DNA from: Candidatus Vogelbacteria bacterium
GTDB taxonomy: Bacteria > Patescibacteriota > Minisyncoccia > Phycocordibacterales > XYD1-FULL-46-19
DNA length: 37,128 bases
Direction of reading: 5' to 3'
Assembly (NCBI GenBank): GCA_903864935.1
Contig: CAIPHT010000006.1
Span: forward strand, 1 to 37,128
Shown in pieces: positions 2,546-8,732 of this stretch (its first letter is position 1; every line of letters starts with the position of its first letter). Position numbers and translations under genes: made by a program. A model generated the notes under the pieces. The model ran no database searches, was not told the origin of the DNA, and worked only from the letters and a program-made list of their open reading frames with translations.

Positions 2546-3874
2546 GTGAAAGAATTTGGTTTCAAAATTGAGAAGAAAATTCCTGGCCGTCTTGGGCGAG
2601 CGGGGGTCATTACCACACCTCACGGAGAGATCAAAACTCCGGCTTTTGTGACCGTGGGAACTAAGGCGACTGTTAAAGCTCTGACACCAGAAATGGTAAA
2701 TAGTTTGGGTGCCCAAGTTGTGCTCTCTAACACTTATCATTTATATCTCCAACCTGGCGATGAACTTGTCGCTAAAGCGGGAGGTCTTCATAAATTTATG
2801 AATTGGGATGGTCCCATGATGACCGATTCGGGCGGCTTCCAAGTTTTCTCGCTTGGTGCGGCTTTTGGTGAAGGCGGAGTATCTAAATTTGCAAAAGAAG
2901 GTGTGCAGAAAATTGATGGCGGAGAGAAGTTGGACTTCGATGAGCCCGGAAGTCCAACTTCGCATAGCCAGAAATTAGCTAAAATTGACGAAGACGGCGT
3001 CACTTTTAAATCACACATAGATGGTTCGGAGCATCGCTTCACTCCCGAACGTTCAATGCAGATTCAACACAACTTAGGCGCCGATATTATTTTTGCTTTT
3101 GACGAATGCACTTCGCCATCGGCCGACTATGATTATCAGAAACAGGCCATGGAGCGAACACATCGTTGGGCAGAGAGAAGTTTAGCAGAGCACCAGCGTC
3201 TGCTTCAGGAGCAAGAAGCTCCCTCTCAAAAAGTCCTCGGATCTCCTCGCGATGCTCGGCCAGACATTTTTGATAGGGACTTCTTGTCTCCTTCGCTCGG
3301 CCAGACATTTTCATCAGGAACTTCTTCTCACCCCGCTTTGTTCGGAATTGTTCAAGGTGGCCGTCATCAAGATTTGAGAGAAGAAAGTGCCCGCGTAATT
3401 GGTGGGATGGATTTTGACGGCTTCGGTATTGGTGGCTCATTTGATAAAGAAGATATGGGTACAGCTGTGGGTTGGGTCTCGGCGATCCTTCCCGAAGATA
3501 AACCTCGTCACTTGCTCGGTATTGGCGAGCCTGAAGATATTATTGAGGGGGTTAAGAATGGCGCTGATACTTTTGATTGTGTTACTCCCACCCGTATGGC
3601 CCGTAACGGCACCCTTATTACCAAGGCTGGGAGGTTAAATATTTTGAATGCTCAATATCGTGAAGACTTCACACCAATTGAAGAAGGTTGTGGTTGTTAT
3701 ACTTGTTCACCCCGCCCGGATGGCGGGGCACGTTATACTCGTGCCTATCTCGCCCATCTCTTCCGCGCCAAAGAAATGTTGGCCGGCACTTTGGCCTCGG
3801 TGCATAATCTCTATTTTCTCATCAACCTCACCAATCAAATCCGTGAGAAGATTCTCAAAGGGGAGGAGTTTTAG
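2546..3874 (+). CDS. tgt: tRNA-guanine transglycosylase, with three apparent insertions
   Basis: DSGGFQVFSL, FGIVQGGRHQDLR, FDCVTPTRMARNG, CGCYTC zinc site; GTG start 6 nt after TAAGAT. Confidence 0.93.
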   Translation: MKEFGFKIEKKIPGRLGRAGVITTPHGEIKTPAFVTVGTKATVKALTPEMVNSLGAQVVLSNTYHLYLQPGDELVAKAGGLHKFMNWDGPMMTDSGGFQVFSLGAAFGEGGVSKFAKEGVQKIDGGEKLDFDEPGSPTSHSQKLAKIDEDGVTFKSHIDGSEHRFTPERSMQIQHNLGADIIFAFDECTSPSADYDYQKQAMERTHRWAERSLAEHQRLLQEQEAPSQKVLGSPRDARPDIFDRDFLSPSLGQTFSSGTSSHPALFGIVQGGRHQDLREESARVIGGMDFDGFGIGGSFDKEDMGTAVGWVSAILPEDKPRHLLGIGEPEDIIEGVKNGADTFDCVTPTRMARNGTLITKAGRLNILNAQYREDFTPIEEGCGCYTCSPRPDGGARYTRAYLAHLFRAKEMLAGTLASVHNLYFLINLTNQIREKILKGEEF

Positions 3875-3903
3875 TTTTATTGTAAATCTTATATAATTGC
3901 TGT

Positions 3904-4707
3904 ATGGAAAATCTAGATCAAAAAACGCCTCGACTCCTGACCCCGGAAGAAATCGCCGGCTTAGAGGGAAACGGCGTTATAGTCATCGAAGACCGACCAG
4001 AAATTTGTTATTTGAAGTGTGACCAAGAAAAGAATCTCAAAAGGGCTATGGCTAGAGGGACCATTATCATAACTAAGCCAGCAGTAGTTTTAACGGGGAA
4101 AAGGGCTGACGGTGGGGAAGAGAAATCTGACAATATTCCTAGCCTAGAAGGGTCAATAAATTTACTTATTGAAAGGAACAGATCCTTAGGGGGCTACATT
4201 GATTTAGAAAAATTTAAAGATACTCCTCCGACAGATAGGGGTGTGATAAAAAACGACGAAGACGCAGATTATGATTCTGTTTTTTATGTTATTGGCCACT
4301 GGAATAATATTTTGTTCATGAAAGCCTTTCTCCCCGAAGATATTGCATTTAAAGAAGTTTTTCTCCTAAATGAGCCAACTAGTTCTCAAGATGAATGGCT
4401 CAAAATCAAAATGCTGGAGCACTTTTCTTCAACGTATTTAGAACCGCGAGGCAGATCAAAAAGTTTTTATGAGGAACATGGCTTGGAAGAGGATTCCTTG
4501 AGAATATTAGAAGATCTTGATTTTTTGAAAGAGGCTACGGGGGCTCGTGTTGGGAAAGTCGTTGAAGAAAATTTTAGCGGTGACTGGGAAGTCTTTCAGA
4601 AAAGCTGGCGGGAATTTTACCATGATTGGTGGCCAACTCAATTTCAGAAGATGATGGCTTGTCAAGAAAAGGTTATTGAATGGTTACAAACGATTGTTAA
4701 GAAGTAG
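3904..4707 (+). CDS. Hypothetical protein, 267 aa
   Basis: ORF; TATAAT-N6-ATG start; followed by terminator. Confidence 0.75.
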   Translation: MENLDQKTPRLLTPEEIAGLEGNGVIVIEDRPEICYLKCDQEKNLKRAMARGTIIITKPAVVLTGKRADGGEEKSDNIPSLEGSINLLIERNRSLGGYIDLEKFKDTPPTDRGVIKNDEDADYDSVFYVIGHWNNILFMKAFLPEDIAFKEVFLLNEPTSSQDEWLKIKMLEHFSSTYLEPRGRSKSFYEEHGLEEDSLRILEDLDFLKEATGARVGKVVEENFSGDWEVFQKSWREFYHDWWPTQFQKMMACQEKVIEWLQTIVKK

Positions 4708-4721
4708 TATCCTCTAAATTT

Positions 4722-4764
4722 CGCCCCGTCGCTTGCCGTAAGATGAGTCACGGGGCGGTTTTTG
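4722..4764 (+). terminator. Terminator T0 of the array
   Basis: CGCCCCGTCGCTTGCCGTAAGATGAGTCACGGGGCGGTTTTTG. Confidence 0.8.
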
Positions 4765-4773
4765 TTTACCAAA

Positions 4774-4809
4774 TGTTACTCATTTCGACGGTCGTCTAAA
4801 AAGGTAACA
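4774..4809 (+). promoter_or_regulatory. GACGGTCGTC palindrome with TGTTAC/GTAACA arms
   Basis: Core 4787-4796, arms 4774-4779 and 4804-4809, both spaced 7 nt. Confidence 0.6.
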
Positions 4810-4833
4810 AAATTTACAATTGCAAAAAATGTT
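4806..4833. repeat. 28-nt post-terminator repeat, variant copy
   Basis: AACAAAATTTACAATTGCAAAAAATGTT; related copies at 5149, 5921, 6430. Confidence 0.7.
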
Positions 4834-4839
4834 ACTAAT

Positions 4840-4868
4840 TTGACATGATAAATCAGGAGTGACATATT
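4840..4868 (+). promoter_or_regulatory. Promoter TTGACA-N17-CATATT
   Basis: Same layout at 6033-6061. Confidence 0.65.
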
Positions 4869-4918
4869 AGAGGGCAGAATGTAACCAACGCCTCGAAAGG
4901 GGAAAGGAAATATTGATC

Positions 4919-5074
4919 ATGGATATTCCCGAGAAAGAGACCCAGGAAGACGCCCTTGCCAGGTACAAGAGGCTCCTCGATGAGGGGGAAATCACCCAAG
5001 AAGATTACCGAGCCTTGTGCTCTCACCGGCAATTGAAAGATGCCCTGACTGGGGCTGGTCGCCAGACATTGTGA
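4919..5074 (+). CDS. Orphan small ORF 1, 51 aa, SHOCT-like
   Basis: MDIPEKETQEDALARYKRLLDEGEITQEDYRALCSHRQLKDALTGAGRQTL; AAAGGAA SD; not in the supplied track because it is under 60 aa. Confidence 0.65.
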   Translation: MDIPEKETQEDALARYKRLLDEGEITQEDYRALCSHRQLKDALTGAGRQTL

Positions 5075-5104
5075 GATTGTCGTGGCGTCCCACATCCATA
5101 TCTT

Positions 5105-5141
5105 CGCGACGTTCTCCATAAGGAGCACGTCGCGGTTTTTG
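5105..5141 (+). terminator. Terminator T1, different stem but same tail
   Basis: CGCGACGTTCTCCATAAGGAGCACGTCGCGGTTTTTG. Confidence 0.8.
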
Positions 5142-5148
5142 TTTACTG

Positions 5149-5176
5149 AACAAAATTTACAATCGTAAAAAATGTT
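5149..5176. repeat. 28-nt post-terminator repeat
   Basis: AACAAAATTTACAATCGTAAAAAATGTT, identical at 5921 and 6430. Confidence 0.8.
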
Positions 5177-5187
5177 TAGTTAAGAAA

Positions 5188-5223
5188 AGGTAACACTCGT
5201 GACGGTCGTCAGCAGTGTTACCT
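5188..5223 (+). promoter_or_regulatory. 36-nt extended palindrome with GACGGTCGTC core
   Basis: AGGTAACACT-cgt-GACGGTCGTC-agc-AGTGTTACCT. Confidence 0.7.
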
Positions 5224-5225
5224 AT

Positions 5226-5254
5226 TTGACAGAAGAGAGAAGACAGGATATTTT
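5226..5254 (+). promoter_or_regulatory. Promoter TTGACA-N17-TATTTT
   Basis: Same layout at 5564-5592. Confidence 0.65.
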
Positions 5255-5289
5255 GGAAGAAGAGTTGCAACAAGGAAAGGGTGGTATTA

Positions 5290-5492
5290 TGCCAGGATAT
5301 ACAAAAGAAGGCGTTGAGAGGAACTTCTTGGGTAAGGAGGTAACGATTAATGTCTCTGGCCAGAAGATTGTCGGGAGAATTACTTCTTCCGCCGAAGACG
5401 ACCAGCCATTTTATTGCCTTTCTGTTACCACCCCTACTGGGGCCGTTGTTTCAGTTGATGTCGCCGACATCAGCCAGGTCAAAAGGAAATAA
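5290..5492 (+). CDS. Orphan small ORF 2, 67 aa
   Basis: MPGYTKEGVERNFLGKEVTINVSGQKIVGRITSS...; start chosen at 5290, after GGAAAGG. Confidence 0.65.
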
Positions 5493-5505
5493 TTGTGTCG
5501 CTTTT

Positions 5506-5542
5506 GAGGCCACCCCAGGGGAAAGGGGTGGCCGTTGTTCAT
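5506..5542 (+). terminator. Terminator T2
   Basis: GGCCACCCC-AGGGGAAA-GGGGTGGCC followed by a weak T tract. Confidence 0.6.
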
Positions 5543-5563
5543 AATCTTTATTTCCTAATTCAT

Positions 5564-5592
5564 TTGACAGAATAAATTAGACAGGATATTTT
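5564..5592 (+). promoter_or_regulatory. Promoter TTGACA-N17-TATTTT
   Basis: Consensus -35, N17, near-consensus -10. Confidence 0.65.
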
Positions 5593-5640
5593 GGAGGGCA
5601 GAATGTAGCCAACGCCTCGAAAGGGGAAAGGAATAGTATT

Positions 5641-5853
5641 ATGGCCACTAAAAAGAAAATGGGACTTACACCCGTTCGCGTTACCCATCCTGTTTTACCA
5701 ACAGCAAAAGATCTTGTTGAAGGGCTTTATCGGATATGCCGTATTTCTTGGCAGGAGTGCCAGGATATCAAAGATGCCATCGACCGGGACAGGAAAGAAT
5801 CATTACAGAGCGGAGCTGCTGCCTACCGAGACCGTGGATCTGGCAGGGGATGA
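5641..5853 (+). CDS. Orphan small ORF 3, 70 aa
   Basis: Leader GGCAGAATGTAGCCAACGCCTCGAAAGGGGAAAGGAA shared with ORF 1; terminator downstream. Confidence 0.65.
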   Translation: MATKKKMGLTPVRVTHPVLPTAKDLVEGLYRICRISWQECQDIKDAIDRDRKESLQSGAAAYRDRGSGRG

Positions 5854-5870
5854 TGATTTACTTCTCTTCT

Positions 5871-5914
5871 CGCCCCGTTGCTTGCCGTAAGGTGAGCCAC
5901 GGGGCGGTTTTTGT
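5871..5914 (+). terminator. Terminator T3
   Basis: CGCCCCGTTGCTTGCCGTAAGGTGAGCCACGGGGCGGTTTTTG. Confidence 0.85.
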
Positions 5915-5920
5915 TTACTA

Positions 5921-5948
5921 AACAAAATTTACAATCGTAAAAAATGTT
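5921..5948. repeat. 28-nt post-terminator repeat
   Basis: Identical to 5149-5176. Confidence 0.8.
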
Positions 5949-5989
5949 AACAAAATTGACGATCGGCGGAGATTGATAACAAATTCCAA

Positions 5990-6027
5990 TATGTACAAAA
6001 TCAGACGGCCGTCCAAAAGTGTACATA
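5990..6027 (+). promoter_or_regulatory. GACGGCCGTC palindrome with TATGTACA/TGTACATA arms
   Basis: Core 6004-6013, arms each 6 nt away; weaker site GACGATCGGC at 5958-5967. Confidence 0.7.
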
Positions 6028-6032
6028 AATAT

Positions 6033-6061
6033 TTGACAGAACAAACTAGGAGTGACATATT
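6033..6061 (+). promoter_or_regulatory. Promoter TTGACA-N17-CATATT
   Basis: Same spacing and -10 as 4840-4868. Confidence 0.65.
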
Positions 6062-6111
6062 AGAAGGCAGAATGTAACCAACACCCTCTAGGAGGGGGAA
6101 GGAATATCTTT

Positions 6112-6351
6112 ATGTGCGGACAACATGGTTTTCCGCCTTCGTCGACCGTTGCTGTCCCGGTGGCACTCGTAGAGAAGAAGAATTTCATGGGCCTGCTGGT
6201 GGACGCGCAAAACCGTGACCGAATCTACGTTCTTCTTATCCAAATGAAGGACACTGACCGCATTAGCCAGGAGGAATATGCTTTTCTCTATAAGGCCCTT
6301 GTGGACAAAATTGATTTGGTTATTGAGACCGAGAAGTCATGGTCACAGTAA
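6112..6351 (+). CDS. Orphan small ORF 4, 79 aa
   Basis: Leader with CCCTCTAGGAGGG hairpin then GGAAGGAA SD; terminator T4. Confidence 0.7.
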   Translation: MCGQHGFPPSSTVAVPVALVEKKNFMGLLVDAQNRDRIYVLLIQMKDTDRISQEEYAFLYKALVDKIDLVIETEKSWSQ

Positions 6352-6379
6352 CCGATTTCTGCGGTCACTCATCTCTCTT

Positions 6380-6422
6380 CGCCCCGTTGCTTGCCGTAAG
6401 GTGGGCCACGGGGCGGTTTTTG
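6380..6422 (+). terminator. Terminator T4
   Basis: CGCCCCGTTGCTTGCCGTAAGGTGGGCCACGGGGCGGTTTTTG. Confidence 0.85.
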
Positions 6423-6429
6423 TTTACTG

Positions 6430-6457
6430 AACAAAATTTACAATCGTAAAAAATGTT
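6430..6457. repeat. 28-nt post-terminator repeat
   Basis: Identical to 5149-5176. Confidence 0.8.
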
Positions 6458-6471
6458 AAGTAGTTTTCAGG

Positions 6472-6547
6472 ACTAACTATAATATGACGACCGCACTAAA
6501 ATAGTTAGTATTAATAAAAACAAGACGGCCGTCTCGGAAGTGTTAAT
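6472..6547 (+). promoter_or_regulatory. Two palindromic sites upstream of uvrB
   Basis: ACTAACTA (6472-6479)/TAGTTAGT (6502-6509) around GACGACCGCA; AGACGGCCGTCT at 6523-6534 with ATTAATA/TGTTAAT arms. Confidence 0.65.
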
Positions 6548-6626
6548 ATGTGATTTTCCAAAAAGGGAAATTTGTGGTATTGTGTGGATTCTTGTATTAA
6601 AGAAGAGTAAAAATAAGAACGAAGAA

Positions 6627-8732
6627 ATGTCTAAGATTTTTAAACTACAATCTAAATTTGAGCCCGCGGGTGACCAACCTAAAGCGATTAAGGAATTGGT
6701 GGCGGGGCTTAAGAAGGGGCTGAAACATCAGACCTTATTAGGCGTGACGGGTTCGGGCAAGACCTTCACCATGGCCAATGTGATTGAGGCTTATAATAAG
6801 CCGACCCTAGTGATTGCTCACAATAAGACCTTGGCCGCACAATTGGCCCAGGAGTATCGCGACTTCTTCCCCGACCATGCCGTGCATTATTTTGTTTCTT
6901 ACTACGACTACTATCAGCCAGAGGCCTACATCGCGCACTCCGATACTTATATCGAGAAGGATGCCAGCATTAACGAAGAGATTGAGCGCTTGCGTCACGC
7001 CTCGACCGAAGCTTTGCTCACTCGCCAGGATGTGATTATTGTGGCCTCAGTCTCCTGTATTTATGGTCTTGGGAGTCCTGAGGAATATGCCAAGAGCTTC
7101 GTGCGCCTCCTTGTTGGTGACAAATATACCCGCCAAGAAATTATTGAGAAATTAATTAGCGTTTATTTTGAGCGCACCAATGCTGACCTCACACCCGGAA
7201 CCTTCCGCGCCATCGGTAACTCGGTAGAGATAATGTTGCCGGGTAGTCGCGAGATTGTGAATTTGAAATTAGGCAGTGACCCCGCCGTTGACGGGGCAAG
7301 CACCATCGATGAAATTCTTATGGTTGATTCTATCTCTCGTCGCGTTATGAGCACCCCCAACGAGACTTATATTTATCCGGCCAAACACTTCATCACCAGT
7401 GAGGACGACAGAAATCGCGCTATCAAATCTATTAAGGCGGAGCTTGAAGGGCGGCTTAAAGAATTAGAAAAAGAAGGCCAGCCTGCGCAGGCAGGCAAGC
7501 CTCTTGAAGCCGAGCGCTTGAAGCGTCGCACCAATTATGATCTCGCCATGATTAAGGAGGTGGGCTATTGCAATGGGATTGAGAATTATTCGCGCCACCT
7601 GACCGGACGCAAGAAAGGGGAGGCGCCGGCGACTCTCTTAGATTATTTCCCTCATAACGAAGACGGTTCGGCCGACTTCTTAACCATTATTGATGAATCC
7701 CATGTCGCCGTGCCCCAAATTCGCGGGATGTTTGCTGGTGATGAGAGTCGTAAGAAGAACTTGGTAGAATACGGCTTCCGCCTCCCCTCGGCACTTGATA
7801 ATCGCCCCTTACGCTTTCCCGAGTTCGAAGAGCGAGTCAATCAGGTTATTTATACTAGTGCCACGCCCGCGGACTATGAATTAGAAAAAAGTGGCAATGA
7901 GGGTATAATTGAACAGATTATTCGCCCGACGGGTCTTATTGATCCGGTTATTGAAATAAGGCCAATAGTCTCAAGAATAACCCCGAAGAAGAATAAGCAA
8001 GATTCTTCTTCGGGGAGCTACCCTGGCCAAATAAAAGATTTCATCACCGAAGCGCAAAAAGAAATTAAGAACGGACATCGTGTCATTGCCACTACTCTCA
8101 CCAAGAAGATGGCTGAGGACTTGGCCGAGTATCTCAAGAATGAGGGCGTGAAGTCGGAGTATATCCATAGTGATGTGAAGACAATGGAACGTATTAAGAT
8201 CCTGACCGAGTTTCGTCGCGGGACTTTTGATTGCATCGTCGGCGTGAACTTATTGCGTGAGGGCTTAGACTTACCTGAAGTTTCTTTTATTGGGATTCTC
8301 GATGCTGACAAGGAAGGCTTCTTGCGGTCTGAAGTAGCTCTCGTTCAGACTATCGGTCGCGCGGCGCGCAATTTGGCTGGACGCGTGATTCTCTATGCTG
8401 ACGTGGTGACCGGCTCGATGAAACGGGCAATAGACGAGACTAACCGTCGTCGGGCTATCCAGATTACTTACAACAAAAAGCACAATATTACTCCACAATC
8501 TGTCTTAAAGAGTATTCATGATATTACCGACTCAATTGCCAACGAACGCAACAAAGCGGTGGGTGAGTTGCTGGCCATCGATGCCCATATGTTTGGCGGC
8601 AACTTGAAGAAGATTCTCAAAGAGAAGAATAAACAAATGAACGAAGCGGTCAAAGCTCTCGATTTTGAAACAGCGGCCATCTTGCGTGATGAGATTAGGG
8701 CGCTTGAGGTTGAAAACAATGGTAAGAAGTGA
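6627..8732 (+). CDS. uvrB: Excinuclease ABC subunit B, with apparent insertions
   Basis: LLGVTGSGKTFTMANV, YYDYYQPEAY, NYSRHLTGR, DESHVAVPQ, TIGRAARN, C-terminal UVR motif. Start set at MSKIFKLQSKFEPAGDQP. Confidence 0.95.
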   Translation: MSKIFKLQSKFEPAGDQPKAIKELVAGLKKGLKHQTLLGVTGSGKTFTMANVIEAYNKPTLVIAHNKTLAAQLAQEYRDFFPDHAVHYFVSYYDYYQPEAYIAHSDTYIEKDASINEEIERLRHASTEALLTRQDVIIVASVSCIYGLGSPEEYAKSFVRLLVGDKYTRQEIIEKLISVYFERTNADLTPGTFRAIGNSVEIMLPGSREIVNLKLGSDPAVDGASTIDEILMVDSISRRVMSTPNETYIYPAKHFITSEDDRNRAIKSIKAELEGRLKELEKEGQPAQAGKPLEAERLKRRTNYDLAMIKEVGYCNGIENYSRHLTGRKKGEAPATLLDYFPHNEDGSADFLTIIDESHVAVPQIRGMFAGDESRKKNLVEYGFRLPSALDNRPLRFPEFEERVNQVIYTSATPADYELEKSGNEGIIEQIIRPTGLIDPVIEIRPIVSRITPKKNKQDSSSGSYPGQIKDFITEAQKEIKNGHRVIATTLTKKMAEDLAEYLKNEGVKSEYIHSDVKTMERIKILTEFRRGTFDCIVGVNLLREGLDLPEVSFIGILDADKEGFLRSEVALVQTIGRAARNLAGRVILYADVVTGSMKRAIDETNRRRAIQITYNKKHNITPQSVLKSIHDITDSIANERNKAVGELLAIDAHMFGGNLKKILKEKNKQMNEAVKALDFETAAILRDEIRALEVENNGKK

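Follow-up and report, generated by a model that had tools for sequence, protein, structure and literature searches.

A tandem array of small genes framed by copies of the tgt 3' end, and a probable family of palindrome-bounded miniature elements carrying a Cas2-like gene

How do four small genes without evident kinship come to lie one behind the other in near-identical regulatory frames? The question is raised by the DNA between tgt and uvrB in a Candidatus Vogelbacteria genome (G000; 825 kb, 98.8% complete). The window, meaning the whole stretch analysed (37,128 nt), makes up the opening 37 kb of a contig of 165 kb. A preliminary description of the locus had seen ORFs of 51, 67, 70 and 79 aa in common promoter, leader and terminator frames next to uvrB, and proposed that cassettes turn over by recombination between the flanks or that new genes are recruited into a standard expression unit. 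The parts are all present as it described. The promoters read TTGACA-N17-CATATT at 4840 and 6033, and TTGACA-N17-TATTTT at 5226 and 5564. The leader GGCAGAATGTARCCAAC occurs at 4873, 5597 and 6066 (0.14 matches expected with up to 3 mismatches), a common terminator at 4722, 5871 and 6380, and a 28-nt repeat is found exactly at 5149, 5921 and 6430 (chance expectation 0), with a fourth copy in the array at 4806 differing by 2 mismatches. The features of the locus are as follows.

2546..3874, + strand: tgt (queuine tRNA-ribosyltransferase), source of the promoter/leader copies; tgt-uvrB synteny by tblastn in G001, G003 and others
3904..4707, + strand: orphan 267-aa ORF, candidate module 0 of the array
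4722..4770, + strand: terminator T0, common to the 5871 and 6380 sites only
4774..4808, no strand: type B palindrome (core 4787) with TGTTAC arms and GACGGTCGTC core; one arm in common with the adjoining type A palindrome
4803..4836, no strand: type A palindrome, diverged copy of the 28-nt repeat
4838..4884, + strand: promoter P1 and leader, copy of the tgt 3' end; reads LT-stop-stop-IRSDILEGRM-stop
4919..5074, + strand: ORF1, 51 aa, SHOCT-like (PF09851, 27.2 bits, cut-off 27)
5105..5146, + strand: terminator T1; stem differs, T-run junction alike
5149..5176, no strand: type A palindrome, exact 28-nt repeat
5189..5222, no strand: type B palindrome (core 5201), GGTAACACT arms, folding energy -19.1 kcal/mol
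5224..5288, + strand: promoter P2, degenerate copy of the tgt end; reads LTEERRQDILEEEL
5289..5492, + strand: ORF2, 67 aa, zero family matches over cut-off
5536..5608, + strand: promoter P3 and leader, longest copy of the tgt 3' end; reads VHNLYFLIHLTE-stop-IRQDILEGRM-stop
5641..5853, + strand: ORF3, 70 aa, without homologues in 60 relatives
5871..5919, + strand: terminator T3, in a block matching that of T4 at 95% over 88 nt
5921..5948, no strand: type A palindrome, exact 28-nt repeat
5989..6027, no strand: type B palindrome (core 6004), TGTACA arms; subtype as in the element at 69.9-70.5 kb of contig C6
6031..6077, + strand: promoter P4 and leader, copy of the tgt 3' end; reads LTEQTRSDILEGRM-stop
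6112..6351, + strand: ORF4, 79 aa, without homologues in 60 relatives
6380..6427, + strand: terminator T4, the terminator common to T0 and T3
6430..6457, no strand: type A palindrome, exact 28-nt repeat
6473..6510, no strand: type C palindrome, ACTAACTA...TAGTTAGT; same type as in the Cas2-like element at 65.7-66.3 kb of contig C17
6508..6549, no strand: type B palindrome (core 6524), TATTAA arms
6627..8732, + strand: uvrB, right neighbour of the array

No known RNA families were found in the array. What serves as promoter and leader in the array is a copied 3' end of the adjacent tgt gene, as seen in the in-frame reading and in the alignment to the tgt end of G001, a genome of the same genus. 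The leader GGCAGAATGTAR consists of the last tgt codons and the stop (...Glu-Gly-Arg-Met-stop). The C-terminus of tgt itself is SVHNLYFLINLTNQIREKILKGEEF, and the TTGACA box has been lost from its own 3' end; in another relative (G010) the tgt C-terminus is RDVLEGRL, followed by the stop. Aligned to the G001 tgt end, P1, P3 and P4 scored above 500 of 500 shuffles, the 62-nt alignment of P3 scoring 59 against a shuffle maximum of 26. P2 on its own gives a weak alignment with tgt; over 34 nt, however, it matches P3 at 88% identity. That the promoter and leader are copies of the tgt end had gone unremarked in the preliminary description.

The tgt and uvrB genes adjoin in relatives, with 0, 1 or 2 small ORFs in between. 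The tgt 3' end of G001 codes for SVHNLYFLINLTEQIRRDILEGGTGRRW-stop and has a TTGACA...GATATACTA promoter within its last codons; downstream lie one small ORF and a terminator, which makes a single module. G003, which belongs to the same family and another genus, has two modules at this locus, with terminators 90% identical over 58 nt and ORFs that are unrelated (979/1000 shuffles). Within genome G000 the leader and the terminator are found at the array and nowhere else, so the frame is a local array and not a set of dispersed cassettes; a dispersed standard expression unit is ruled out by the same restriction. The frames are of local make, built by copying of the tgt end, and are no travelling cassette. 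A promoter in the final codons of tgt would drive a small gene closed by a terminator; this end of tgt, with its promoter, and the terminator would have been copied in tandem, and the small ORFs inside the copied frames may have diverged or been exchanged past recognition. The array would then be an example of a promoter hidden in the final codons of a gene and copied into a row of expression units for orphan genes.

The enclosed ORFs behave differently from their frames. When the region 3700-6627 was compared with itself (BLAST, E<=0.5), matches were confined to the promoter/leader and terminator/palindrome blocks, and none lay inside any array ORF. Among the six ORF pairs, protein shuffles showed none to be clearly related, the best being ORF1-ORF4, equalled by 18 of 1000 shuffles. 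The four ORFs are absent elsewhere in the genome and have no homologues in 60 relatives, which rules them out as ORFs conserved among relatives; ORF1 is the sole one to reach a Pfam family (SHOCT, at the cut-off). Since frames are 79-95% identical while the ORFs within them are without common sequence, simple tandem duplication fails for the cores, and the deep homology that the preliminary description would have taken as a sign of plain tandem duplication was found neither by protein shuffles nor by self-BLAST.

Divergence accompanied by gene conversion of the flanks, or replacement of the cores, would both fit, and the first is slightly favoured. A related sub-question of the tgt-array part, not a rival to the explanation as a whole, is whether the four ORFs, as SHOCT-like hairpin proteins, descend from an ancient tandem duplication and diverged past recognition, with promoters and terminators kept alike by gene conversion. 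This is a real possibility that falls somewhat short of probable. The SHOCT match of ORF1 at the cut-off and the weak ORF1-ORF4 similarity are consistent with it, as are a short motif common to the first ORFs of G001 and G003 (13/1000 shuffles) and the terminator identity of 92-95%, which exceeds the promoter identity of 79-86%, as expected of conversion; however, the remaining ORF pairs score the same as shuffles, ORF2 is unlike the other array ORFs, and bridging homologues are missing from the 60 relatives.

The 28-nt repeat, which the preliminary description had counted as part of the cassette frame, turned out to be something else: an imperfect palindrome, here called type A, that has no relation to the small genes, is dispersed in the genome and belongs to a different genetic element. 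Pattern searches of genome G000 identified at least three dispersed families of imperfect palindromes. Type A has 10 copies in G000 and none in 60 relatives. Type B has the core GACGGYCGTC and arms that vary yet remain self-complementary; its core is found at 22 distinct sites in G000, one of which (on C17) is without palindromic arms, and gives no more than 4 matches per genome in 20 relatives. Type C has the arms ACTAACTA and TAGTTAGT. Nine solo ends lie in the array: four palindromes of type A, four of type B and one of type C. The four with the GACGGYCGTC core (4787, 5201, 6004 and 6524) and the third type (6473-6510) were missed in the preliminary description.

Elsewhere in the genome the palindromes pair around a single gene, at C6:70k, C6:137k (where the gene is broken), C15:42k, C5:45k and C17:66k. 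The two members of a pair are always of one type: the C5 pair is A, those at C6 and C15 are B subtypes, and the C17 pair is C. Each of the five Cas2-like genes in G000 has paired palindromes of a type that also occurs solo. Palindrome sites also lie after terminators and in gene ends, e.g., L046 and L047. Another genome, G061, has 12 palindrome sites; five solo palindromes of G061 have one core and arms that differ wholly yet are perfectly complementary. The palindrome of G025 was found at the two ends of its element, with no solo copies.

A complete element is about 450-700 bp long and consists of a palindrome, one winged-helix/Cas2-like gene and a second palindrome. In a scan of bacterial genomes 80 loci were recovered, almost all of them from Paceibacterota where named, the carriers being labelled Patescibacteria group, Nomurabacteria, Zambryskibacteria, Jorgensenbacteria and Taylorbacteria. 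A matching palindrome pair surrounds the gene at 54 of 75 analysed Paceibacterota loci, compared to 0 of 412 shifted control positions (22/72 versus 0/262 in a stricter first test). Across 57 elements the similarity of palindrome cores covaries with that of the proteins (Mantel r 0.51, equalled in 0 of 2000 permutations), to which common descent of the hosts may contribute.

Two elements from the Nomurabacteria genome RIFOXYB1_FULL_39_16 (L138 and L157) have 479 bp in common at 91% identity within unrelated flanks, and the identity starts and stops within 1-4 nt of the outer palindrome edges. Homology extended more than 60 nt past the palindromes in none of 107 pairs of elements without common neighbours and in 13 of 22 pairs with common neighbours. 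As the identity of L138 and L157 stops at the palindromes, and none of the 107 pairs extends beyond them, the palindromes mark where the moving unit ends. Some elements occupy the same locus in related genomes and can therefore be inherited vertically for long periods. L124 and L148 are one locus in two genomes, with five common neighbours; they have the same core and wholly different arms that are still perfectly complementary. The C15 element of G000 (L047) is missing from G001, where the genes on either side of it lie directly next to each other. The G000 site holds 1.35 kb, an orphan ORF with its own terminator as well as the element, and the comparison thus documents absence of the element from a sister species rather than one clean insertion event. 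Neither a target-site duplication nor a clean empty site lacking just an element turned up.

Taken as one explanation, it is quite probable that the array is two things laid over one another, a local locus of tgt-end copies and the solo ends of mobile elements, and that the complete elements are palindrome-bounded miniature mobile elements following a REP/RAYT-like logic with an unrelated protein. The array palindromes would be solo ends of such dispersed elements. The family is apparently a kind of miniature mobile DNA that has not been described before; a search of the open-access literature found no paper joining Cas2/PaaX-like genes with palindromes or with Patescibacteria, and a report elsewhere is possible.

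The gene between the palindromes specifies a protein of 170-200 aa in which a winged helix at the N-terminus is followed by a Cas2-like domain at the C-terminus, the latter matching PaaX_M (PF20803, E about 1e-13). All 38 aligned proteins match PaaX_M, and 36 of them match CRISPR_Cas2 (PF09827) at E<=0.01, the G000 members being under the curated cut-off. An AlphaFold2 model of one relative (mean pLDDT 84.7, pTM 0.60) returned E. coli PaaX as the best match in the PDB (8a39, E 3.7e-4), followed by Cas2 structures. The full-length PaaX profile (NCBIfam TIGR02277) gave 20.8 bits, far under its cut-off of 264.55.

The Cas2-like protein most likely recognises the core of its own palindrome as a dimer and promotes the spread of the element and of solo palindromes, much as has been proposed for RAYT transposases and REPs. 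That the protein itself is the mobilising enzyme of widespread palindrome-ended miniature elements in Paceibacterota, reading the core only while the arms are freely rewritten as perfect inverted copies, is put forward tentatively, as close to an even matter. If so, the elements would move by a system that belongs to none of the DDE, HUH, tyrosine, serine or Cas1 classes, and would bear on how Cas2 came to accompany Cas1.

Mobilisation in trans by the Y1/RAYT transposases of the genome, with the palindromes as ordinary REP-like sequences and the Cas2-like gene as a passenger or regulator caught between two of them, is unlikely. G000 does have seven Y1_Tnp genes of RAYT size, and the palindrome mosaics resemble BIMEs, but palindromes of types A, B and C flank none of the seven (other palindromes flank two), and the palindrome core covaries with the Cas2-like protein. 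G025, which is 100% complete, carries an element and has no Y1_Tnp match, yet as noted it also lacks solo copies. RAYT ownership of types A, B and C is thus unsupported by the flanks of the Y1 genes.

The proteins could also be PaaX-type repressors and the palindromes their operators at many genes, including the array promoters. A PaaX-like winged helix joined to a Cas2-like domain would suit this, palindromic sites fit a dimeric regulator, and palindromes abut the -35 boxes of P1, P2 and P4. Such a regulon is nonetheless quite improbable: the palindrome lies downstream as well as upstream of the gene at the 54 paired loci, within-genome duplicates end at palindromes, sites occur after terminators and in gene ends, and type A as well as the type B expansion are missing from the same-genus genome.

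An integron-like exchange, in which recombination at the 28-nt repeats replaces the small genes and leaves the flanks constant, is very unlikely, for although variable cores sit in constant frames both in the array and in G003, and the repeat ends in AAC...GTT, the ORFs occur nowhere else in the genome or relatives, leader and terminator are restricted to a single locus, and the repeat bounds a Cas2-like gene elsewhere. From the original cassette proposal there survive the common frames with differing cores, in the array and in G003; the mobile cassette and the standard expression unit do not, the leader being a tgt C-terminus with its stop, and no cognate recombinase acting on the small ORFs was found. 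An attC identity is rejected on the dispersal of the repeat and its place around a Cas2-like gene, a phage origin because neither a relative of the Cas2-like protein nor the 28-nt repeat was found in viral contigs, and a plasmid origin on two weak PaaX-like matches only.

REP-like palindromes are common in bacteria, and REPs associated with RAYTs have a GTAG or GTCG tetranucleotide 5' of the palindrome. The elements resemble REP/RAYT systems (REPtrons, BIMEs) in their short palindromes dispersed in intergenic DNA (10 type A and 22 type B sites in G000), mosaics, a gene between two copies of its own palindrome (54/75), palindrome-protein covariation, and long vertical persistence with compensatory changes of the arms. 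They differ in that the protein is of winged-helix and Cas2-like (PaaX_M) type and not a Y1 HUH transposase, in palindromes that in many cases are nearly perfect and vary freely in the arms while the core is conserved, and in a low copy number of about 10-25 sites. As the defining Y1 transposase is absent from the unit, the elements are not members of REP/RAYT.

Casposons use Cas1 as integrase and are many kb long; they share with the present elements the presence of a relative of a CRISPR-adaptation protein inside a mobile element, whereas the latter hold a Cas2-like gene only. Integron cassette arrays have short ORFs with imperfect palindromes in between, as does the tgt-uvrB array, but in the latter every ORF is served by a promoter and a terminator of its own, copied from the adjacent gene, and the palindromes belong to another element. 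The proteins have the winged helix and the following central Cas2-like domain of PaaX regulators (PF20803 in 38/38), and PaaX as best PDB fold, but are about 170-200 aa long compared to about 300, fall far under the NCBIfam PaaX cut-off, and their genes are palindrome-bounded on both sides. With CRISPR Cas2 they share the ferredoxin-like domain, a (F/Y)D(I/V) strand and a Q-x-SVW motif, but they have an extra N-terminal winged helix, and the gene stands alone between palindromes in an element of about 450-700 bp.

In REP/RAYT systems the gene always lies between two inverted REPs, and REP and protein coevolve (PMC2817692, PMC8266576); in these papers the protein family tied to REPs is the Y1 RAYT. 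If a second family, unrelated and of Cas2-type fold, follows the same genetic logic, this would mean that palindrome-based miniature mobility arose more than once. It would also offer a non-CRISPR mobile setting for relatives of Cas2, and would give the 'orphan Cas2/PaaX' genes of Patescibacteria a testable function.

Two smaller observations concern the edges of the array. The A-C-B mosaic at its right end (6430-6549) is seen again on contig C4 (L050, 3960-4090). At its left end, the orphan 267-aa ORF returned zero matches in Pfam, NCBIfam and PADLOC and is unmatched beside tgt or uvrB among the relatives examined; it is probably module 0 of the array.

The strongest natural evidence that the palindrome-gene-palindrome unit is mobile is a copy pair in one genome, Nomurabacteria RIFOXYB1_FULL_39_16, where two units of ~475 bp share 91% identity and lie in flanks unrelated to each other.

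L138 2873–3344, first copy
L157 2872–3345, second copy

The 12 palindromes of genome G061 (L231–L242) have a single common core, ACGCTATMGCGT, around which the arms differ while remaining mostly perfectly self-complementary, and this suggests that arms are rewritten through hairpin-templated repair or compensatory change. Across genomes, a few types account for the palindrome centres (GCTATAGC, GCGATCGC, GCCATGGC, CACGGTCGTG and GCGGCCGC; example sites are L137 2936 and 3493, L155 2796 and further loci of the 75-locus flanking-palindrome survey), hinting at a common recognition pattern.

Y1 (RAYT-like) transposase genes at two loci of the source genome, L214 and L215, each lie between palindromes of their own kind (TGTCCAACATCGGATGTTGGACA; GGGGGGAAGCTTAGCTTCCCCCC). 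Judged by this arrangement, classical REP/RAYT-like systems coexist there with the Cas2-like ones.

Intergenic gaps of the source genome also hold many orphan small genes, often beside the palindromes; these genes have a promoter and a terminator of their own as well as a strong ribosome site.

L047 1109–1524, orphan small genes
L050 3310–3618 and 4260–5240, orphan small genes
L043 and L054, orphan small genes

At 3904–4707 of the window, tgt is separated from the array by an orphan ORF of 267 aa for which a family match was not found; it is probably the first unit of the array. A dispersed terminator-like hairpin of ~38 nt (CCCGCCAGACCTC...GAGGTCTGGCGGG) is also present in the source genome (L047 949–987), recurs at at least six places in the congeneric G001, and occurs at several places in G003, of the same family.
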